A DNA stretch of 64,000 nt. Source: a virus. The notes under the pieces are model-generated. The model saw only the letters and a list, made by a program, of their open reading frames with translations, was not told where the DNA came from and did not search any database. Both the position numbers and the translations under genes were made by a program. The stretch is from IMG/VR virus record IMGVR_UViG_3300030099_007533, positions 1-64,000 of that record. One strand, given 5' to 3'. Each line of letters opens with the position of its first letter. Within the stretch, counting starts at the first letter, position 1. Positions 1 to 40,418 of the stretch are shown here, in pieces.

Positions 1-494
1 CTGGAGGTTCCCTTAAAATAGGAGTGGATGAGAGCCTTTACTGCATCAGCCCAGCCTTCGATTGAGTCTGAGATTAAGAAGCGTCTTGTTCTTTTAGTAT
101 TCGGTTTTCTAATTTCTGGTAGTTTTTCAACGTGGTGCTGCTGAACGGAGAACCCAACACCAGTTCCACCCAATAACAAAAACATACATTCGGAAAAAGC
201 ATCAGCATGATCAATTGGCATATAAGCACAATTATATACGCGGTTTGGAGCAACTTCAATTGGTTTGCCAGCGAACTGCATTGAGCGCATAGACGGCAAA
301 ACCTTCTTTGGTATAACATAGTTGTTATACAGTTTCTTAATTTCTTTCTTCAACTCTGGGTACTTCTTAATATGCATGTTCATATTACGAGTACAAAGTT
401 CTACCCAATTTTCCCTACGTTCTTTTTTAGGAACGTACTTGGCGTACTTCATATGTACGGTGATGTCTGATAAAATTTCTGATGCTATTTCCAT
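1..494 (-). CDS. nrdJ: Class II (B12-dependent) ribonucleotide reductase, N-terminal part
   Basis: The gene starts at 494 and runs off the left edge of the window, leaving 164 codons. I read it directly as an open frame. Residues 66-127 carry a block typical of the monomeric adenosylcobalamin-dependent reductases (RTPR/NrdJ): LPSMRSMQFAG, then NRVYNCAYMP with a conserved cysteine at about 89, then LLLGGTGVGFSV and KLP. The family reduces ribonucleotides to deoxyribonucleotides and uses coenzyme B12 instead of the oxygen-dependent NrdAB of T4. Its ATG shares one base with the helicase stop (TAATG), and AAAGGAG lies just before it inside the helicase gene, so the two are probably co-translated. 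The catalytic C-terminal cysteines are outside the window. Confidence 0.9.
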   Translation of the reverse strand, partial: MEIASEILSDITVHMKYAKYVPKKERRENWVELCTRNMNMHIKKYPELKKEIKKLYNNYVIPKKVLPSMRSMQFAGKPIEVAPNRVYNCAYMPIDHADAFSECMFLLLGGTGVGFSVQQHHVEKLPEIRKPNTKRTRRFLISDSIEGWADAVKALIHSYFKGTS

Positions 495-1870
495 TATTTG
501 TCTCCTTTTAGTTCGCGTTGCAATTCTTTATATTTTTCTCTTAACATATCTTTTTGTTCTTTCGCAGCATTTTTACTAACAGCCGCTGGATCGACTGAAT
601 TCTTTTCTACTTTAATTTTTACATTGCTTGTATCCATATGAATCGGATAAATCAAGCCATCGGGACCGAATCGATTTTTAGCCACAAAGAACCTGCCAGT
701 GTTATTATTTTTATCCTCGGTGGTACGGGATAGAGTAAATATGAAGTCGGCAACAAAACACTTGGAAAAAGCTTCAGAAATTGACTCCATCGTCACAAGT
801 TCTGCGTTATACCCTGTTCTATTCGTTTGAGAGACCGTCCAAATCGGACAATGATTTTCTTGTGCAATGCCACGAAGTTCTTCATAAATTGATTCTAAGT
901 CGTGTCTTTTTTCGCCATAACTTTTCTTTGGGCTAATCAAATCTGCATAATCAACAATAATAATGTCAGGTTCAATTCCTCGCATCTTCAATTTTGATAA
1001 ATGGTTTTTGATTGCCGTGGTTGTAATTGACTTTGTTGGATACTCTTTTACAATTAAAGTTCCCTTAATATCTTTAATCTTTTCTAAGATGTTGTCCTTG
1101 AACACATTTAGATCTTTTAGTTTTACGCCTGTAATACACGAATCATATCTGCGTGCAACCACCGTTTCTGAAAGCTCTAATGTGTAATGTACAACCGTCT
1201 TATCTTCTTTTAGTGCTTGACATCCTAAGTGAGCAAGGATATGACTTTTACCAGCGCCAGTGCCTGCCATCGCAACACCGAGTTCACCTGCTCCAAGACC
1301 ACCTTGCATCAAGTCATCAAAGGTTTTCCAACCTGTTGTCAACGGACTGCGTACTTTAATCTCAAAACGCTTCTCAAAGTCTTTAAGATAATGATAGCCA
1401 AAATCATTTGATTGCCCCAACTTAAGTGCTTCATTGATAAGATCACTAATTTCATCAAATGAAGATTTTTCCAAAAGACGAACTGACTTAACAATTGCTT
1501 CTTTTAATTTTTGTTTTTTACAGAAGTCCAAGGCAGTATCTTTAATGTACTGCTCTCCTTGAACAACTGGGTCTGAGTGAATACGAATAAGAAAATCACG
1601 AACTTGTTTAATAACTAAGTCGTCTTCCTTCTCCATCTCCGTATTGATTAGAGAAGCCATAAGGTTCATTGACGGATGAACCTCATACTTTTCTTTATAT
1701 TGATATATTAAATTTGAAAATTTTTGTAGGTATTTTGTCTCAAAGTACTCAGTGATGAGAACCTCGCCAATCTGGTCAGAATATGCTCTATCCATAAGGA
1801 TGAGCTTGGCGAGGTTCTCTTGGAACATATTACCGAATTTTGAGAAATCAACCTTCTCGCTTGTACGCAT
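494..1870 (-). CDS. 41: Replicative DNA helicase, DnaB/gp41 type
   Basis: A 458-residue RecA-fold helicase of the DnaB family, expected to form a hexamer that unwinds DNA at the phage fork together with the primase. Walker A is GTGAGKS at 203-209 and Walker B is IIIVDYADL at 303-311. The N-terminal 150 residues are helical, like the DnaB N-domain. The C-terminus is a charged, helical tail (KEQKDMLREKYKEL). T4 gp41 is 475 residues, so it is full length. The start is supported by AAAGGT a few bases upstream. A near-consensus sigma70 promoter sits in the 59-base gap before it. The reductase gene follows with a one-base overlap. Confidence 0.95.
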   Translation of the reverse strand: MRTSEKVDFSKFGNMFQENLAKLILMDRAYSDQIGEVLITEYFETKYLQKFSNLIYQYKEKYEVHPSMNLMASLINTEMEKEDDLVIKQVRDFLIRIHSDPVVQGEQYIKDTALDFCKKQKLKEAIVKSVRLLEKSSFDEISDLINEALKLGQSNDFGYHYLKDFEKRFEIKVRSPLTTGWKTFDDLMQGGLGAGELGVAMAGTGAGKSHILAHLGCQALKEDKTVVHYTLELSETVVARRYDSCITGVKLKDLNVFKDNILEKIKDIKGTLIVKEYPTKSITTTAIKNHLSKLKMRGIEPDIIIVDYADLISPKKSYGEKRHDLESIYEELRGIAQENHCPIWTVSQTNRTGYNAELVTMESISEAFSKCFVADFIFTLSRTTEDKNNNTGRFFVAKNRFGPDGLIYPIHMDTSNVKIKVEKNSVDPAAVSKNAAKEQKDMLREKYKELQRELKGDK

Positions 1871-2347: not shown

Positions 2348-3298
2348 CTAAGTTTTTGCTATTCTATTAGAACTTGCAAAAAGGTCTGTCCACCTGATTT
2401 CTGGAAAGCCATCCTGAAACATCATCTTAACAATTTCTGTTTTATTATAATACTTTGGATAGTTTTCCACTGAGTTCTTAACCATATCTCTTACTTGAAA
2501 AGAGACATTTGGAATATACAACTGCATAATTTTATAATTCTTTAAGATCTTGTCGTAGTTGTCAAGAATACCCTCGTGAATTTTTAATTTATTCTCTGTT
2601 GCTTCGCACACATCTGATAAATCAGTTAAACTATAATCTTTTTCTTCTACTAAGAAAGGAAAACGCTTGGCTAAAGTTTTTAGTCCTGCACCTTTGACAC
2701 CTTCTAAGTTGTCGCTTTTATCACCACTAACCGCTCTTGCTAGGGCAAAATTGTTTGGATGAATTTTAAACTCTTCCAGTATGTCGTTCCTTGTTTTAAA
2801 AACGGCTTGTACTGGTCGGTAAATAATTGTTTCGTCATCCAACAACTGATAAAAATCTTTATCGCTTGAAACAATTATCTTTTGTCCTTCTATCTGACGG
2901 CATAAAATTGAAATCATATCATCAGCTTCCACGCCATCGTGGATTAGTTGGACCATTGGCAAGTTGTCAATATACTCTAACAACCTCAACATTTGTTCTA
3001 TCTTGCTTTTGTTTTCTTCTTCAAGAGACATACTAACACCATCAGACCTGTTTAGCCTAATTGCCTTTCGCCCTTCTTTGTAAGAGGACACCACTGATCT
3101 GCGACGGGCAGAGCCTCCTGCACCGTCCCAACAAATGTAAACCTTGTCTGGCTTCATTTCTCTGGTAAGTTTCTGAAGTGTTTTAAGAAAGCCAACCAAT
3201 CCACCAACAGGCTCTCCGCTGGTTGACAAAGATGGATTTACAACATAAGCACGATAAAATATATTTGTGCCGTCAATGATTAGAGACCTCTCAGTCAT
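2348..3298 (-). CDS. rnh: 5'-3' exonuclease / flap endonuclease (T4 RNase H type)
   Basis: Structure-specific nuclease that removes RNA primers and 5' flaps during lagging-strand synthesis. I start it at 3298 rather than an upstream Met because this ATG overlaps the uvsX stop (ATGACTGA) and GAGG lies before it; that gives 316 residues against 305 in T4 RNase H. Metal-binding acidic residues of the PIN/FEN fold are present: LIIDGTN (D9), CWDG (D58), VEADD (124-127), SSDKDF (D146, D148) and SGDKSDN (D193, D196). A helix-hairpin-helix (VKGAGLKTLAKRF) follows at 201-213. It is co-translated with uvsX. Confidence 0.92.
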   Translation of the reverse strand: MTERSLIIDGTNIFYRAYVVNPSLSTSGEPVGGLVGFLKTLQKLTREMKPDKVYICWDGAGGSARRRSVVSSYKEGRKAIRLNRSDGVSMSLEEENKSKIEQMLRLLEYIDNLPMVQLIHDGVEADDMISILCRQIEGQKIIVSSDKDFYQLLDDETIIYRPVQAVFKTRNDILEEFKIHPNNFALARAVSGDKSDNLEGVKGAGLKTLAKRFPFLVEEKDYSLTDLSDVCEATENKLKIHEGILDNYDKILKNYKIMQLYIPNVSFQVRDMVKNSVENYPKYYNKTEIVKMMFQDGFPEIRWTDLFASSNRIAKT

Positions 3299-4400
3299 TT
3301 TCACCATCCTCGTAGAAGTCGCTGGACTTACCAATCCTCTTGTCAAACTTCATAACCACTTCTTCTTCCAACAACTTAATAACTCTGTTGTAGAACTTTT
3401 CGTCATTAAGCTTGTCCATCCACTGCTTTGTCTGGAACTTATCTGTCTTGCCATCTTCGTAGTGCAAGGTAAACCAAGCACCCGCGTTTGTTAGACTATC
3501 TGAGGACTTGATTGCTTCAAGCCAGCTTTCCTTATCCATAATCTTAACTTCTTCGCCAGCCCACAAAATCTTAAAGTTGCATTGGCGACCTTGGGTTCCA
3601 AAGCGCGACTTCTCAATCTTAGCCTTAACCTCCGTACCAATTCTAAATCCCTTGTCATCAAAGATGAAAGATGACTTGCCTTTGCGTGCAGTCAACCAAA
3701 TTCTCAATGAATATGAATATGCAAGTGCTTTACCGCCCGGTGTAAAGTAGGGAGTTGTAAGAGCCTCTGCTGTGTTTCTTGTAATATTAGTCTTTAACTG
3801 ATTAAGAATTAATAGAGTTGACTTTGTATTAGCAATTGGCTGAATTAGTTTTGACAAGCCCTTAGAAAGAATACGAGGTTTAACTGCCATCGTAGACAAA
3901 GGGTTGAAGTCTGATTCAATGTCTGATACTGATGGTGTCAACGCCATACTATCCCAGATAAAAAGCATCTGACTGTCGTTGTTGCCAAGCAAACTTTCAA
4001 TAGTTTCCAGCACAAACTCAACTGAGTTTGCCTGAACATAAAGCAGCTTTTCAACATCGCATCCCGCCATTGCCAAAAAGTTTGGGTCAATAGAATTTTC
4101 TGAATCAAAGTAGATGACATCAATGCCCATCTTCTGTGCATTGCCTGCAATCTGTGCAGCCATATAAGATTTACCGGTTGCTTCTAAACCAGCGATCTCA
4201 CTAACTTTGCCAACGGGAATACCACCCCAATCTCCACGTTTAATAATACCATCAAGCCATTTACAACCAGTTGGAATAAATTGTAAAACTTGTGTTGGGT
4301 TGTCGTCAGACAAAGAAAAGGCGACATCAGTACCCGCCTTTTTATTAATTAATTTCTTCATATCGGCAATAGAAAGCTTGCCTGTTTTTGTTTTTGCCAT
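3291..4400 (-). CDS. uvsX: UvsX/RecA-like recombinase
   Basis: Strand-exchange protein of 369 residues that forms filaments on single-stranded DNA for repair and recombination-dependent replication. Walker A is GLEATGKS at 71-78, the catalytic glutamate follows in FDSEN (E101), and Walker B is LFIWDS at about 146-151. The acidic C-terminus (DFYEDGEND) is typical of T4 UvsX, where it helps regulate DNA binding. Length is close to T4 UvsX (391). GGAG stands seven bases before the start. A hairpin terminator and a TGTTATAAT element lie between it and gp32. Confidence 0.95.
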   Translation of the reverse strand: MAKTKTGKLSIADMKKLINKKAGTDVAFSLSDDNPTQVLQFIPTGCKWLDGIIKRGDWGGIPVGKVSEIAGLEATGKSYMAAQIAGNAQKMGIDVIYFDSENSIDPNFLAMAGCDVEKLLYVQANSVEFVLETIESLLGNNDSQMLFIWDSMALTPSVSDIESDFNPLSTMAVKPRILSKGLSKLIQPIANTKSTLLILNQLKTNITRNTAEALTTPYFTPGGKALAYSYSLRIWLTARKGKSSFIFDDKGFRIGTEVKAKIEKSRFGTQGRQCNFKILWAGEEVKIMDKESWLEAIKSSDSLTNAGAWFTLHYEDGKTDKFQTKQWMDKLNDEKFYNRVIKLLEEEVVMKFDKRIGKSSDFYEDGEND

Positions 4401-4445: not shown

Positions 4446-4474
4446 ATTATAACACTTATTTAAGCAGAAAGCAA
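4446..4474 (-). promoter_or_regulatory. Possible extended -10 promoter for uvsX
   Basis: The coding strand has TGTTATAAT (perfect TATAAT at 4451-4446 with the TG extension). Seventeen bases upstream is TTGCTT, a poor -35, inside the end of gp32. Transcription would start around 4440, directly at the hairpin. This would let uvsX be transcribed independently of the upstream terminator. Confidence 0.45.
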
Positions 4475-5200
4475 GGACTTAAATGCTTGGTCTGCTGCAT
4501 CGTCAGTGGTCTTAGCATACTGAACTGTACCAGCACTATCATCAGTATCGCCTGACAAGTGCTGCTCCAACATCTGCTGAACCTCATCAGTTGTCTTCTT
4601 AGAAAAGACATTATCATACTGAATCTCAGTCTCAGCCAACTCTTTTGCCAGTCCCTTATCCTTATGCAATGGGGAAGTGCGACGGGCTGGGAAAATGTCA
4701 GTGCTTGGGAACATCTGACCAGCCTTCTTACCATAATTAATAGTAAGGTCTGTGCCTTCCTGTAGGTCAGTAATATCGCCATACTCTGGGTTTAGAACCA
4801 ACTGAAGAAGCTTTTGGTATACAGTCTTGGAATAACCCCAAAGACGAACACCCTTTTCCTCTTCACCACGAACAATTACAGGGGAAAAGAAGCGCTGCTT
4901 TGCCATAAGCTTCTTTGCTTCCTCGCGGCTTTCCTCTGTGCCATCATTGAACAACTTGCGAACATATGCGTCAAGCACATCGTCCTCTCCAAAATTCTTC
5001 TTTGGTGAAAGAAAACCGGGGTTGTTTGCTACATTGTAGTGAAACCAGTACTCCTTGAAGGGATCTCCATCTGGATCTGGAACAATACGAATTACGGACT
5101 CGCCATCTTGTGGCTTCCAAAATAGATTCTTGTTAGAACCTCCACCCTTGTTCTCAGTAGAAGCGAGCTTTGCTCGCATTTTTTTCAAATCAATAGCCAT
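4460..5200 (-). CDS. 32: Single-stranded DNA binding protein gp32
   Basis: A 246-residue single-stranded DNA binding protein that coats DNA at the fork and coordinates replication and recombination proteins. Hallmarks are a basic N-terminal tail (MAIDLKKMRAKL), FWKPQDGESVIRIVP at 27-41, WGYSKTVYQKLL at 121-132, and an acidic, mobile C-terminal tail ending DDAADQAFKSLLSA. T4 gp32 (301 residues) has a structural zinc held by His and three Cys. This protein has no cysteine at all, and the matching segment reads GFLSPKKNFGEDD, so the zinc site is lost. AAGGAG precedes the start. It has its own sigma70 promoter and terminator. Confidence 0.92.
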   Translation of the reverse strand: MAIDLKKMRAKLASTENKGGGSNKNLFWKPQDGESVIRIVPDPDGDPFKEYWFHYNVANNPGFLSPKKNFGEDDVLDAYVRKLFNDGTEESREEAKKLMAKQRFFSPVIVRGEEEKGVRLWGYSKTVYQKLLQLVLNPEYGDITDLQEGTDLTINYGKKAGQMFPSTDIFPARRTSPLHKDKGLAKELAETEIQYDNVFSKKTTDEVQQMLEQHLSGDTDDSAGTVQYAKTTDDAADQAFKSLLSA

Positions 5201-5215
5201 GTTATTTACTCCTTG

Positions 5216-6061
5216 TTATAAGGCAGGTGATTTCCCTGCCTCGCTTTGTATATGATTAGTATAGTACATTATGTACACTTTGTCAACAGAATATCCCGAT
5301 GGGAAAAAGCCGTAAGATACTTGCTGAAATTCATTTTCTTCCGCCTTCTTTAACTTGCGAGATACTAAATCCAAAACATTGCCTGTCTCTGCTAATGTTT
5401 CTTCGCTAAAAGTAAAGTAAAAGTGTTTCTCTCTTACTCCTTCCAGTTCATAAAACTTTTGTTCTGCCTCATCATTAAGACTATACAGCCCAAAAGTTGC
5501 GATCCTATTCTGCTCCTCTGGCTCTTCTAAGTTCCCCATCAACGCAGATGCCTGACCATAATACTCCATTAGACACCACATGTCAACAATTTTCTCGTTT
5601 ACCTTCTGAAAATAGTTGCCAATAGATATATCAGACGCCAAGTTAGAGATACTTTTATTGGAGATCAGCCACATTTTGTTGAACAACCCTGACCGTGCAA
5701 ATTCTTGTAAGATATTCCTTACAACTCGCTCTCTTGTCTTGCCATTGTTATTCATAAACGAAGTGTCAGGCTGAATATAAAGAAAATCAATCTGTTTATC
5801 CTTGAAGTTCTCCAATATTCTAAGACAAGCGCCTGTTATAAGTCCAGATCCTGCCATAACACAGAGGATCTGATCCGATTTAACATTGTTTTTAAGTTTA
5901 TCAAGATCAATTTCAACCTTTTCTGCTTCTTCAATCGTCTTTACTTTAGGGAACTTTACATAAGCGTCAGTGTGTGTATCAATAGAGTATGCTTTATAAC
6001 CCTTTTCCTCAAACAACTTACATATTTCACGCCCAGCGTTTCCAATACCAATTACATCCAT
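5216..6061 (-). CDS. FtsZ/tubulin-like protein
   Basis: A 281-residue protein whose first 165 residues follow the nucleotide-binding half of FtsZ. VIGIGNAG (3-10) matches the first glycine-rich loop, AYSIDTHTDA (24-33) matches the strand ending in NTDAQ, and VMAGSGLITGAC (68-79) lines up with the tubulin signature AGMGGGTGTG. FLYIQPDTSF (93-102), NGKTRERVVRNILQE and MWLISNKSI then match the later FtsZ strands and helices. Two glycines of the signature are replaced by Leu-Ile, and I see no NxDxxD catalytic T7 loop, so GTP hydrolysis or classical polymerisation is doubtful. It overlaps the polymerase stop by 10 bases and precedes gp32. Role unknown; intracellular positioning or a replication scaffold are guesses. 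Confidence 0.7.
   Translation of the reverse strand: MDVIGIGNAGREICKLFEEKGYKAYSIDTHTDAYVKFPKVKTIEEAEKVEIDLDKLKNNVKSDQILCVMAGSGLITGACLRILENFKDKQIDFLYIQPDTSFMNNNGKTRERVVRNILQEFARSGLFNKMWLISNKSISNLASDISIGNYFQKVNEKIVDMWCLMEYYGQASALMGNLEEPEEQNRIATFGLYSLNDEAEQKFYELEGVREKHFYFTFSEETLAETGNVLDLVSRKLKKAEENEFQQVSYGFFPSGYSVDKVYIMYYTNHIQSEAGKSPAL
5258..5286 (-). promoter_or_regulatory. Sigma70-type promoter for gp32 with palindromic spacer
   Basis: Coding strand TTGACA (5286-5281), 17 bases, then TATACT (5263-5258): 11 of 12 consensus positions. The spacer contains the 13-base inverted repeat GTACATTATGTAC (5264-5276), which could be an operator. The promoter lies within the last codons of the FtsZ-like gene, 58 bases before the gp32 start. 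Confidence 0.7.
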
Positions 6062-7239
6062 TCTGTGCTTAGATCTCCCAATGTTCTTCCAACCTGAATA
6101 TTTAGTTTCATTTCACCATATCTTGTCTGCTTAAATGTATCCCTGATCTGATTAAGCAATTTATAATCTTTCCTATCAAAATCTAAGATCATACTGTCGT
6201 GGATAAGCATAGAAACATAAGATTTACTATTATTGTCTTGCAAAATCTTAAATACTTTATAAGCCTGCTCCAAAAACAAATCAGACGCAGTGCTTTGGAT
6301 TAGATAATTAAGTGCGTGATAATCATCTGCCTCAATTTCTCTATCAAAATCAGTTGTAATTTTACCATCAGAAAAATATTTTTTCAGCAAACCATCCCTA
6401 TCATACTCGCGAGATAAAAGAGCGTCATCAGAATTTGGATTGTAAAGCCACGCAAATATTCTCTTTTTCGCCTCAGATCGCTCTGTGCCGTCCTTAAATA
6501 TATTCTTGATGTTCCAGTCGTGGATGTCGCCTTTCGGCTGCTCACGACCAAGCAGAGCCGTTAAAACACGCAATTCAAAAGCATTGTAATCAAACTCAAT
6601 GAAAACGCCATTGTTTGGTTTGATCATTGTGCGATATTCTTTGTTTAGGGTAAGCAGGGGAAACGAAGAGGGGGTAGTAGATAACCGCCCCGTCACAGTC
6701 CCGAAGGTGTTGTACTGGATAAAGGCAGGGCTGGATGAATATCTCTTAATAATCTTCCTGATACGGTTATCATTTGCTGCTGTATACACATTTGTAAGAT
6801 CCAAGTTTAACGAACGCTTTGAGATTGAATGAACCATACGCTCAATTTTTTCCAACTGAGCATAGTTTTTTGGTTCTTGATAATTCTTTACCGCAAGTTC
6901 CATAGCTTTATTTTTTAAGTTAAAGAAATCTTCAATAAAAGTTTTTTCAATCAATTCGTCCAAACAAAACTTGCGAGGGTCATACCCGCACACGCTATAT
7001 GATTTAAGTGTGTTCTTGATTTTGTTTTCCAGCATCTTGTATTCTTCTGCATCGTGCTTTGGAAGCAGCTTAACATAATCTTCACCACCACAAAACAACT
7101 TAACAAACTTCACATCTGGTGGTAAGTCATCTTGATATGTCCAAGTATATTTCATTGTATCCTCGTAATCAGAGAATACTTTATCGTCTGCAAAGATGCT
7201 TTTGCAATTATTTTTTGTATCAATTTTTGAGAAAAACAT
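6052..7239 (-). CDS. Family A DNA polymerase, polymerase domain only
   Basis: A 395-residue DNA polymerase of the PolA type, presumably the replicative enzyme here, where T4 would have family B gp43. Motif A is FIEFDYNAFELR (D217). Motif B is RSEAKKRIFAWLYN (R254, K258, F262, Y266), and the conserved arginine segment is GTVTGRLSTTP at 180-190. Motif C is LIHDSM (H347, D348), with Ser in place of the usual Glu of HDE. Only about 115 residues precede the first recognisable thumb/palm region, so both the 3'-5' proofreading and the 5'-3' exonuclease domains are absent; the latter activity may come from the nearby flap nuclease. AAGGA precedes the ATG. Confidence 0.88.
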   Translation of the reverse strand: MFFSKIDTKNNCKSIFADDKVFSDYEDTMKYTWTYQDDLPPDVKFVKLFCGGEDYVKLLPKHDAEEYKMLENKIKNTLKSYSVCGYDPRKFCLDELIEKTFIEDFFNLKNKAMELAVKNYQEPKNYAQLEKIERMVHSISKRSLNLDLTNVYTAANDNRIRKIIKRYSSSPAFIQYNTFGTVTGRLSTTPSSFPLLTLNKEYRTMIKPNNGVFIEFDYNAFELRVLTALLGREQPKGDIHDWNIKNIFKDGTERSEAKKRIFAWLYNPNSDDALLSREYDRDGLLKKYFSDGKITTDFDREIEADDYHALNYLIQSTASDLFLEQAYKVFKILQDNNSKSYVSMLIHDSMILDFDRKDYKLLNQIRDTFKQTRYGEMKLNIQVGRTLGDLSTEWM

Positions 7240-37262: not shown

Positions 37263-40200
37263 TCATTGATTAACAAATGCGTATCCGTCATCTGTTTTAG
37301 AGATTTCGACTGTCATATCGACAATATCTTTCAAACTCTCTATGTGAGTAATTAGTAGCGTAACATCAAAATATCCTTTTACAAGATCTAAGATCCTGAC
37401 GAATCCTTCCATATTCTCAGCGTCCAACGCAGTTCCCGGTTCGTCAAGGATAAACAAGTTGCTCTTCGGCATATTGCTCACATTTAGTAAAGCAATTCTG
37501 ATGGCAACAGCAGCAAGTGTTTTCTCTGCACCTGAGCAAGTTTCAAGTTGTCGTGGGTCATGCTTTGGGTGTTTGATTAGAATATTTAATTTGTTCTCGC
37601 TATTCTCAAAGAATACCTCAAAGTCAACAATGTTAGACAACACTTTCGCAATCTCTGTGTTGATGACTGGTAAAGCCTTCTTGATAACATCAAAAGCAAT
37701 GCCGTTGGAATGCATACACCTCATAAAGAGATCATAAGCTGAATATTCTGTGTTTAATCTAATCTTTTCCTCTTTAAGTTCTTTTAAGTTTTCTAACTTT
37801 TGTTCCAAAGCCCCTTCTTTACCAACGAGAGTATAAATTCTTTCTTCGCAATCCTGTATCTCCTGTTCGGTTCTTTCCTTGTTGGTTTTTGCCAACTCCA
37901 ACTCTGATACAACTTTTTCCATATTCTCCAAGACTTCTTTATGTTCTTCATAATAGTCTACTGTCTCATTTAGTTGTTTTGTTTCCCCTTCTAATTTTTG
38001 TATAGACGAGTTGGTTCTTTCTAAGTGCAAATTTAGATTAGTTAAATTAGATTGTTCATCCTTTGACTTATCAGACAGTCTTGACCAATTGTCAATTGTT
38101 TTGCTGACCTTATCAATATCAATGTTGGATAATTCACCTGAATTTAGTTCAAGCTTCTCTTCCACCTCAGATAAAACCTTCTTTGTAATTGAAAGATCCT
38201 GTTTTGCTCCGTGCGCATCCTTGATGAACTTGCAAGTGGTTAAATACTGTTCGCCACAAGGAATATCCGTTAATATTTTAATTTGGCGAAGGCTTGTTTC
38301 CCTTTCTTTCTCTTGACGTTCTTGTTCTTGTAGCAGCCTCTCAACTTTATTCTGCAACTCATCGGCTTCTTCTTTCTGCCTATTGAGACTTAAAATATCA
38401 ATTGTCTCCAAGAGTGTACTTGCCTTCTCTAAAAATTCTTCTTTTTGTTTGATTTCTTTTGTTAGGGTTCTAACTTTATTTTTTAAAACTTTTTTATTTT
38501 CTCCAAGACTTTCCAACTGCTCTCTTACTTTGCGAATAGAAATTGGTTTTTCTGGAATTTGAGAGAGTTTTTCCTCTAACGCTGCAATATTTTCTTCAAC
38601 TGTGCTTAAATTTTCTTTGAGATCTGAGCAGTGATTCTTTTGTCTTGCGACTGCTGTCCCTGCCTTAAAAATATCATTTTTTGTCTTCTTGATGTCGTCA
38701 TCATAATTAACATCTTGAACCCTGCGAAGTGCTCCTCGTAGATCAGCAGCATCTTCCTTAGCCAACTTAAACTTCCTCTCAAAGAACTCCAAGTCAAGGA
38801 ACTTTGCTAAAATTTCTTTACGACGAGTTGAACCTTCGCTAATGAAAGATAAGGCACCAAGCTGAGAAGACATAGAAGTGTTTAGGAAATCATCTAAATC
38901 TCCAAACACATTGCGGATCGCTTTATCTGTACTACCTCTGGCAGTCTGATTTAGAGAGCCGACCTCGCCCGATACTTGGTCCACATAGTCAAAGTCCGCT
39001 TGCGTTTTAGCCTCGTTTGTAACTTTGCCTTTAAGCTTCTTAACGTATTTATCTGACCTGCGACTAATCTGATAAGTTTTATTGTTAGCTTCAATCTCCA
39101 CCACACCAGATCCATAATCTTTGTTTTGATTGATAATGTTGTATGTTTTTCTAATATTTTTAGAGGTGTTATTATAAATTGTATAAAGCAATGCATCAAT
39201 AACGCTAGACTTTCCACTGTAGTTCTTACCAAAAATTCCAACAGTGCCAGACAATTTATCAAAATCAATAGAATTACCTTCTCCGTAATTGAATAAATTA
39301 TCCCAACTAAACTTTTTAATACGCCAATGAACGTTGCGGGAAATGTCTTCACTCTCTTCAACAACTTTGTTGTACTTTGAATTAAGAGTGAAGACTTCAT
39401 TGAGGGTTTCCTCCGTTACATTGTAGTCTTTAAGGTACTCTTTAATTAGGTCTTGTTGTGTCTTCTCGTCTCGTAAGTTTTCAAACAATTCTGTATCAAC
39501 ACGATCTTCCACCGATAAATCGCCGCTGTTGGCTTTATTTAAGAAAGTGATACTCTCGGGCTTAAATCGATGCTTCGCGATGTCTACAGCCCTTCTCAGC
39601 CGTTCTAAGGCTATGTTAGACTTAGACACCAAACGAAGTCTCGCACCATCTGGACATTTAAAGCCTTTTGGAATTCTACCCGTCTTTGTTAAGTTGATTG
39701 TAATAAAAGGTTTTGGGTTTACAAAGTCAAACTTTTCTCTTGTAAATTCTGTCTTTGACTTAATATCCCAGATAAACATACCCTTATCTTGGGTTTCACC
39801 AAAGTTTTGTTGGATAGTTGAACCAGCATAGGCAATTGTGCCTTCTTTGTTTAGAACCTGTGTTTTGTGAATATCGCCAAGCATTGAATAATCGCAATCA
39901 TCAAAGATTGAAATGTCGTGCTCCCCGTGTTCCATAACAAAACCAATATCTGTTCGGCTATATTTGATCGCGCCGTGATAAAGTCCAATGTTAATCTTGT
40001 CAGGATTGCTTGGCTTGACCCAATTTTCTTCATCAAATACTGATAAGGTGTTAAGACAAAACTCATCATTCAAGTGAGTTTCGCCTGCGTTCTTTAATAG
40101 ATGTAGGCTTGGATGGTTCAGAGCGTCTACAATCGGTGTAATGGCATCTTGGCGGTAAGAATTACGCAAATTACCATCGTGATTGCCCAAAATAACGTAA

Positions 40201-40418
40201 GTTGGGGCAATATCTGCCATATTTTTGAGAAAATCAGAGCATAATTCAACAAATTCTGGTGAAATTTGTGTCTTTGTATGGGCAATATCACCGCAATGGA
40301 TGATATAATCAACCTTCTGATCCTTCAAAGTTTGGTATAACTGTTGAAAAACAGCCTTATATTCTTTGTGATATTTTAAATTTTTTATGTGTGTATCTGC
40401 TATATGGGCAAATTTCAT
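37263..40418 (-). CDS. Fused recombination nuclease, gp47-gp46 (SbcD-SbcC type)
   Basis: A 1051-residue single protein that joins the two subunits of the phage Mre11/Rad50 complex. N-terminal nuclease (1 to about 350): DTH (D8, H10), HCGD (41-44), GNHD (78-81), YHG (H148) and GDIHK (181-185). C-terminal ATPase (about 366 on): Walker A GKNYSGKS at 397-404, long coiled coil from about 550 to 860, signature SGAEK near 962 and Walker B LFILDEP near 988. The hook Cys pair is unusual: C722 and C730 (PCGEQYLTTC), not CxxC. In T4 the proteins are 339 and 560 residues, encoded separately. It overlaps the primase stop by four bases. Confidence 0.92.
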   Translation of the reverse strand: MKFAHIADTHIKNLKYHKEYKAVFQQLYQTLKDQKVDYIIHCGDIAHTKTQISPEFVELCSDFLKNMADIAPTYVILGNHDGNLRNSYRQDAITPIVDALNHPSLHLLKNAGETHLNDEFCLNTLSVFDEENWVKPSNPDKINIGLYHGAIKYSRTDIGFVMEHGEHDISIFDDCDYSMLGDIHKTQVLNKEGTIAYAGSTIQQNFGETQDKGMFIWDIKSKTEFTREKFDFVNPKPFITINLTKTGRIPKGFKCPDGARLRLVSKSNIALERLRRAVDIAKHRFKPESITFLNKANSGDLSVEDRVDTELFENLRDEKTQQDLIKEYLKDYNVTEETLNEVFTLNSKYNKVVEESEDISRNVHWRIKKFSWDNLFNYGEGNSIDFDKLSGTVGIFGKNYSGKSSVIDALLYTIYNNTSKNIRKTYNIINQNKDYGSGVVEIEANNKTYQISRRSDKYVKKLKGKVTNEAKTQADFDYVDQVSGEVGSLNQTARGSTDKAIRNVFGDLDDFLNTSMSSQLGALSFISEGSTRRKEILAKFLDLEFFERKFKLAKEDAADLRGALRRVQDVNYDDDIKKTKNDIFKAGTAVARQKNHCSDLKENLSTVEENIAALEEKLSQIPEKPISIRKVREQLESLGENKKVLKNKVRTLTKEIKQKEEFLEKASTLLETIDILSLNRQKEEADELQNKVERLLQEQERQEKERETSLRQIKILTDIPCGEQYLTTCKFIKDAHGAKQDLSITKKVLSEVEEKLELNSGELSNIDIDKVSKTIDNWSRLSDKSKDEQSNLTNLNLHLERTNSSIQKLEGETKQLNETVDYYEEHKEVLENMEKVVSELELAKTNKERTEQEIQDCEERIYTLVGKEGALEQKLENLKELKEEKIRLNTEYSAYDLFMRCMHSNGIAFDVIKKALPVINTEIAKVLSNIVDFEVFFENSENKLNILIKHPKHDPRQLETCSGAEKTLAAVAIRIALLNVSNMPKSNLFILDEPGTALDAENMEGFVRILDLVKGYFDVTLLITHIESLKDIVDMTVEISKTDDGYAFVNQ

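Follow-up and report, generated by a model that had tools for sequence, protein, structure and literature searches.

The window analysed here is a 64,000-nucleotide stretch of viral DNA, positions 1 to 64,000 of IMG/VR record IMGVR_UViG_3300030099_007533, a 103.5-kb virus contig. On its minus strand, a gene for a protein of 281 residues, here called X, directly follows the gene for a short PolA-family DNA polymerase (polA); genes for a gp32-like protein, a UvsX-type recombinase, a 5'-3' exonuclease and a DnaB-type helicase come after it in that order (Table 1). An earlier note, made from the sequence alone, had placed X between polymerase and gp32, had reported a 10-base overlap with the polymerase gene, and had proposed a divergent relative of FtsZ and tubulin used in replication. 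The open reading frame (ORF) is real, lies where the note put it on a strand that the note had left unstated, and shares bases 6052-6061 with polA. The best reading of the data is that X stands for a branch of the FtsZ/tubulin superfamily that is new, minimal and linked to the replisome; its fold and its gene context are both well supported.

Predicted fold and relation to FtsZ

Searches with X gave no significant match in Pfam, PHROGs or NCBIfam. The best Pfam match was PAC2 (0.18), and the matches in PHROGs (0.01) and NCBIfam (far under its cut-off) were to families of the dehydrogenase type. Pfam PF00091 found no match in the phage's own genome, and single-sequence searches with FtsZ/tubulin families were at or below significance. 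Some members of the X family reached NCBIfam ftsZ at 2.3e-4 and Pfam Tubulin at 0.019.

Evidence for the superfamily assignment came from structure prediction. The AlphaFold2 (AF2) model of X, built on a 53-sequence family alignment, has a predicted local distance difference test (pLDDT) score of 91.8 and a predicted template modelling (TM) score of 0.89. When this model was searched against the PDB with Foldseek, all 50 best matches were FtsZ, with a best E value of 4.8e-12 and TM scores of 0.61-0.69 over ~315 columns that cover both domains. A second family member, 26% identical to X, was modelled with a pLDDT of 95.2 and matched FtsZ and TubZ structures from 1.7e-10. Both models predict a two-domain fold, in which a Rossmann-like GTPase domain is joined by the connector helix H7 to a C-terminal activation domain. 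The earlier note had named fold prediction as one way to check its proposal, and the outcome favours it: the tubulin N-domain, the H7 connector and the C-domain are all predicted, and the best matches of the two models are to FtsZ, not to a dehydrogenase-type family.

Additional evidence for homology came from hhalign, which aligned the family to FtsZ with E values of 1.3e-5 to 7.5e-5. The alignment to PhuZ (7e-5 to 1.4e-4) is local, covering ~97 columns, and goes with a weaker fold match than that to FtsZ; the reference pair FtsZ and PhuZ gave 3e-8. Reversed profiles scored 0.18 or worse, and ugd, gnd, trkA, polA and gp32 all scored 0.035 or worse. Of these, the Rossmann controls (ugd, gnd and trkA) were entered as single sequences, a weaker control than a profile. 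E. coli FtsZ given as a single sequence fails as well (0.08-0.17), so that a profile of FtsZ is needed. When a hidden Markov model (HMM) of FtsZ was run over 6030 ORFs from the fetched loci, the top 24 matches all belonged to the X family, which argues that the resemblance is not due to chance.

An ordinary Rossmann protein (NAD-binding, dehydrogenase or KtrA-type) mistaken for FtsZ would account for weak matches of the GxGxxG end of X to the families of KtrA, 6-phosphogluconate dehydrogenase and UDP-glucose dehydrogenase. These matches span only the first 50-100 residues, however, the single-sequence comparisons with ugd, gnd and trkA fail, no dehydrogenase or TrkA_N fold is among the top 50 for either model, and both fold searches lead to FtsZ over both domains, leaving this explanation extremely improbable unless the two models are both in error. 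Judged from the models, X almost certainly has the fold of the FtsZ/tubulin superfamily. This claim of membership rests on fold and homology, and not on conformity to the T4 signature.

Conserved and missing elements

Conservation was counted over 159 non-redundant family members, and secondary-structure elements were named by their order along the chain in the DSSP assignment of the model. In X this order is S1, H1, S2, a shortened T2-H3 stretch, S4, T4, H4, S5, H5, S6, H6, H7, a shortened T7, S7, S8, H10, S9 and S10; H2/T3, H8, H9 and the C-terminal tail are absent from the model. The three motifs quoted in the earlier note (VIGIGNAG, AYSIDTHTDA and AGSGLITGAC) are all found in X as written, and hhalign places them in the register that the note had suggested. 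The T1 glycines are kept across the family (G5 in 155/159, G7 in 156/159 and G10 in 147/159). Conservation of the T4-equivalent loop is partial (G71 in 141/159, G73 in 111/159 and G77 in 98/159), and the tubulin T4 signature, [SAG]GGTG[SA]G, is not matched by GSGLITG of the window and only in part by the family.

In the T7 region, no NxDxxD was found in the sequence of X or in either model, and neither model has a helix between H7 and S7, where H8 would lie. A divergent T4 loop and a missing NxDxxD had been described before; both hold across the family, and H8 is lost in addition. Near the T7 position, an acidic residue (E/D) at 183 is kept in 119/159 members and R/K at 186 in 154/159. The chain stops just past S10 with a short disordered tail, and the C-terminal H11 and tail of PhuZ and TubZ are absent.

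The guanine-recognition residues, an Asn before H6 and an aromatic residue and Asn in H7, are largely kept across the family: Asn135 aligns with E. coli FtsZ N165, and 140 of the 159 members have an aromatic residue or His at position 151 and 140 have N155. The corresponding FtsZ positions N165, F182 and N186 are established guanine contacts in FtsZ and tubulin, with N165 a contact and F182 to N186 serving base stacking and recognition. X is thus predicted to bind nucleotide and probably does so. For the nucleotide-binding protein of the earlier note, these positions are the one line of support; the further suggestion that X may be non-hydrolysing is drawn from the missing elements.

The strongest conservation is found not in the phosphate loops but at the end of helix H5, as would be expected of a protein-contact surface. 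Here Q119 and R123 are invariant (159/159 each) and S124 nearly so (158/159), and the near-invariant motif QE(Y/F)xRSxxF is a candidate partner-binding surface.

Table 1. Coordinates in the window of X, its elements and neighbouring replication genes.
Feature	Position	Strand	Basis
X, FtsZ/tubulin-fold protein (predicted), 281 residues, 32 kDa	5216..6061	minus	ORF; AF2 pLDDT 91.8; Foldseek top matches all FtsZ
T1 loop, residues 4-11, IGIGNAGR (family IGLGxAGC)	6029..6052	minus	hhalign: aligned to FtsZ T1 loop
T4-equivalent loop, residues 71-77, GSGLITG (FtsZ GGGTGTG)	5831..5851	minus	hhalign register
Family-specific motif, end of H5, residues 119-127, QEFARSGLF	5681..5707	minus	conservation
Asn135, equivalent of E. 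coli FtsZ Asn165	5657..5659	minus	hhalign register; N in 139/159
Start of H7, Phe151-Asn155, corresponding to E. coli FtsZ F182..N186	5597..5611	minus	hhalign register
Shortened T7 region, residues 176-186, GNLEEPEEQNR	5504..5536	minus	DSSP
FtsZ-type C-terminal domain, S7-S10 and one helix H10, without H9	5246..5503	minus	DSSP
Short PolA-family DNA polymerase, 395 residues	6052..7239	minus	Pfam DNA_pol_A 7.8e-16; phrog_17
gp32-like single-strand DNA-binding protein	4460..5200	minus	Pfam gp32 1.5e-12; phrog_1192 1.8e-25
UvsX/RecA-like recombinase	3291..4400	minus	Pfam and PHROGs searches
5'-3' exonuclease	2348..3346	minus	Pfam and PHROGs searches
DnaB/gp41-like replicative helicase	494..1870	minus	Pfam and PHROGs searches

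Distribution and gene context

A search with the family alignment found X in at least 597 IMG/VR stretches. Scans of IMG/VR, each of which gave the best-matching 80 loci and left very remote branches unsampled, returned close relatives when seeded with X; in three of the five viral scans the query was polA or gp32, so that these were not selected on X. The polymerase-seeded scan led to diverged polA loci, nearly all of which have a relative 24-34% identical to X directly downstream. Wherever the flank was long enough, X was present on the same strand in the locus of every gp32 gene (231/231) and every polA gene (220/220). Of 231 polA-X pairs, 183 overlap, most of them by 4, 10 or 13 nucleotides, and in 28 of the 231 more than 100 nucleotides separate the two. 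X is single-copy in each of ten records of 111-204 kb. Apparent inner stops occur in X of three large records; in L289, the one inspected, the frame is open. These data give good support to the conclusion that X is a constant component of the replication module in a large group of uncultured, T4-related phages whose PolA-type polymerase is short.

Searches with tblastn, using five diverse members against 50,697 phage records, found no match in sequenced isolate phages, and the nearest isolate polA sequences match over about half of the protein at ~25% identity. Among GTDB genomes a single relative of X was found, L117, in a metagenome-assembled genome (MAG) assigned to WOR-3. A cellular origin was considered for it and rejected, since L117 is a phage polA-X-gp32-UvsX piece between runs of N. 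This block (5514-10873 of L117, from CP070664.1, the chromosome of a 'candidate division WOR-3' MAG) is phage DNA scaffolded into the wrong genome.

Several further features of these loci were recorded. At ~395 residues, the PolA of the whole group is no larger than a bare polymerase domain, which leaves no space for a 3'-5' exonuclease domain (window 6052-7239 and family alignment). A MazG-like gene of ~103 residues (YNKLVRDRIPEI) lies between polA and X in L178 (2639-2947), L223 (2246-2554), L059 (1866-2165), L275 (2465-2773) and L058 (657-965); the same position holds a Nudix-like gene in L207 and an OMP-decarboxylase-like gene in L288. In the first set, L069 (3-830) alone among the X loci with sufficient flank has no polA upstream. 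The ORF found there instead has a vWA-like DxSxS motif (DILLIVDWSGSMG), and cellular FtsZl1 genes likewise neighbour vWA. Farther from X, SbcD-like and SbcC-like (gp47/gp46) subunits appear fused in one 1051-residue ORF of the window (37263-40418, minus strand). Judged from N-termini alone, a PurA-like adenylosuccinate synthetase with a GDEGKGK motif lies at record positions 98983-99993 (L310, minus strand), and a long apparent cluster of sugar-nucleotide and glycosyltransferase genes at ~70-95 kb of the record (L309/L310).

Possible functions and known systems

X likely has a role in phage DNA replication, and the polA-X-gp32 context strongly supports the earlier note on this point. The favoured explanation, to which we give an even chance, is that X binds nucleotide, forms no filaments and serves the PolA/gp32 replisome as an accessory protein. 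By this mechanism, X would be synthesized in step with the polymerase via translational coupling, would bind guanine nucleotide without building canonical GTP-hydrolysing protofilaments, and would dock in the replisome via its QE(Y/F)xRSxxF surface, where helix H5 ends. The constant overlap with polA suggests coupled synthesis. According to work on phiKZ TubZ, the protofilaments of tubulin, FtsZ and TubZ agree in where T7, S9 and the base of H8 are located (PMC3678025). Since X lacks H8 and the NxDxxD loop, it is unlikely to form a canonical protofilament that hydrolyses GTP, and we consider it somewhat more probable that X forms no canonical protofilament than that it does. That X is a direct partner of PolA or gp32 is given a little less than an even chance. 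Correlations between distance matrices would fit X as a link between the two: X and polymerase correlate at 0.51 given gp32, X and gp32 at 0.48 given polymerase, and polymerase and gp32 at 0.25 given X.

Several points weigh against this explanation. The distance correlations are confounded by linkage because X lies between polA and gp32, and gene order and overlap are no proof of physical contact between X and the polymerase. No polA-X or X-gp32 fusions were found. All characterised members of the superfamily form filaments (Makarova and Koonin 2010, PMC2875224), so that their loss in X would be exceptional. Lastly, with an acidic residue kept at the T7 position in most members, some hydrolysis may take place at a subunit interface.

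A stronger proposal, that X without filament formation is an obligatory replisome subunit, for example a processivity or tethering factor that couples the short PolA to gp32, is offered tentatively and is more doubtful. The lack of a T4-type sliding clamp would favour a processivity role; the clamp model PF02916 found no match in ten large records, although the same model, which finds T4, misses cyanophage S-PM2.

Alternatively, X may be a cytomotive protein like PhuZ or TubZ, which polymerises, perhaps with its interface reshaped, and serves to position or segregate the replication focus or the phage DNA under replication. PhuZ belongs to the same superfamily and its profile matches at ~1e-4, X retains T1 and the guanine-contact positions, 119 of 159 members have an acid at the T7 position, and characterised superfamily members form filaments (PMC2875224). 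However, H8 and the NxDxxD loop, part of the canonical longitudinal interface (PMC3678025), are missing in both models, X lacks a C-terminal H11 tail of the TubZ/PhuZ kind, and lower-ranked viral models match X worse (TM 0.47) than FtsZ does. PhuZ is also non-essential and absent from 24% of chimalliviruses (PMC11724907), whereas X was never missing beside polA in the loci sampled. We regard this alternative as unlikely.

It is much less likely that X antagonises host FtsZ as a decoy monomer that caps or poisons the Z-ring and stops division during infection. An FtsZ-like fold with half of its interface gone could serve as a cap, and lambda Kil and T7 gp0.4 are known phage inhibitors of FtsZ. 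Host-directed inhibitors are usually accessory and patchily distributed, however, while X is strictly placed in a replication operon with polA and gp32, and its invariant family-specific residues lie outside the known nucleotide loops. No better are the prospects of a sensor of GTP or other nucleotides that forms no filaments and links the polymerase to the supply of nucleotides. The conserved guanine-contact positions would fit such a sensor, as would the MazG-like, Nudix-like or OMP-decarboxylase-like genes between polA and X in some loci, but only a minority of loci have such insertions (polA and X lie more than 100 nucleotides apart in 28 of 231 pairs), and nucleotide binding by X is itself a prediction.

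The constant place of X between polA and gp32 and its loss of the part on which normal filaments depend suggest that the cytoskeletal fold of FtsZ has been taken into service in DNA replication. If the stronger proposal, an obligatory replisome subunit, is true, X would be, to our knowledge, the first superfamily member shown to be a subunit of a replication enzyme rather than of a cytoskeleton. The family is large and present wherever this can be checked in its phage group, yet the searches of Pfam, PHROGs and NCBIfam gave it no name, and X is evidently a core replication gene of these uncultured phages. If X does not polymerise, it shows that the FtsZ/tubulin fold can be recruited to a different task, a point of relevance to the evolution of the fold; if X polymerises despite lacking H8 and NxDxxD, current views of what protofilaments require would be overturned. 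Both the superfamily and the tubulins of phages were already known. Searches of open-licence literature gave no paper on the X family, and none on a minimal FtsZ branch that is linked to the replisome and always present in uncultured T4-related phages.

Among known systems, the best fold match is FtsZ (TIGR00065/PF00091), the cell-division GTPase of bacteria and archaea, with which X shares the predicted two-domain fold, the H7 connector, the T1 loop and the positions of N165, F182 and N186 (E. coli numbering). X differs in having ~13% identity to FtsZ and a degenerate T4, in lacking the H2/T3 loop, NxDxxD, H8, H9 and the C-terminal linker or tail, and in being found only in viral sequence, within a replication operon. 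PhuZ (phiKZ TubZ), the phage tubulin of the Chimalliviridae, is likewise a phage-encoded member, and its T1 (GGAGFRIG) and T4 (GGASGSTIG) loops resemble those of X. Unlike X, it keeps T7/H8 and the H11 tail, polymerises, and is optional in its jumbo phages, whereas all polA and gp32 loci that were sampled with enough flank have X. The closest viral fold matches are phage proteins annotated as FtsZ in BFVD, A0A6J5RW92 of an uncultured Caudovirales phage (Foldseek 8.4e-12, TM 0.72) and A0A8S5UFG9 of Myoviridae sp. ctcyQ27 (3.3e-8); these are longer (387-452 residues) and 8-15% identical to X. FtsZl1 and FtsZl2 are highly diverged branches of the superfamily, as X is, but by their description they are cellular, have extra domains or long C-terminal regions and, in FtsZl1, a membrane/vWA context. 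FtsZl1 also has no recognisable T6-H7 elements, and is the nearest precedent for a member of the superfamily that has shed its filament elements (PMC2875224).
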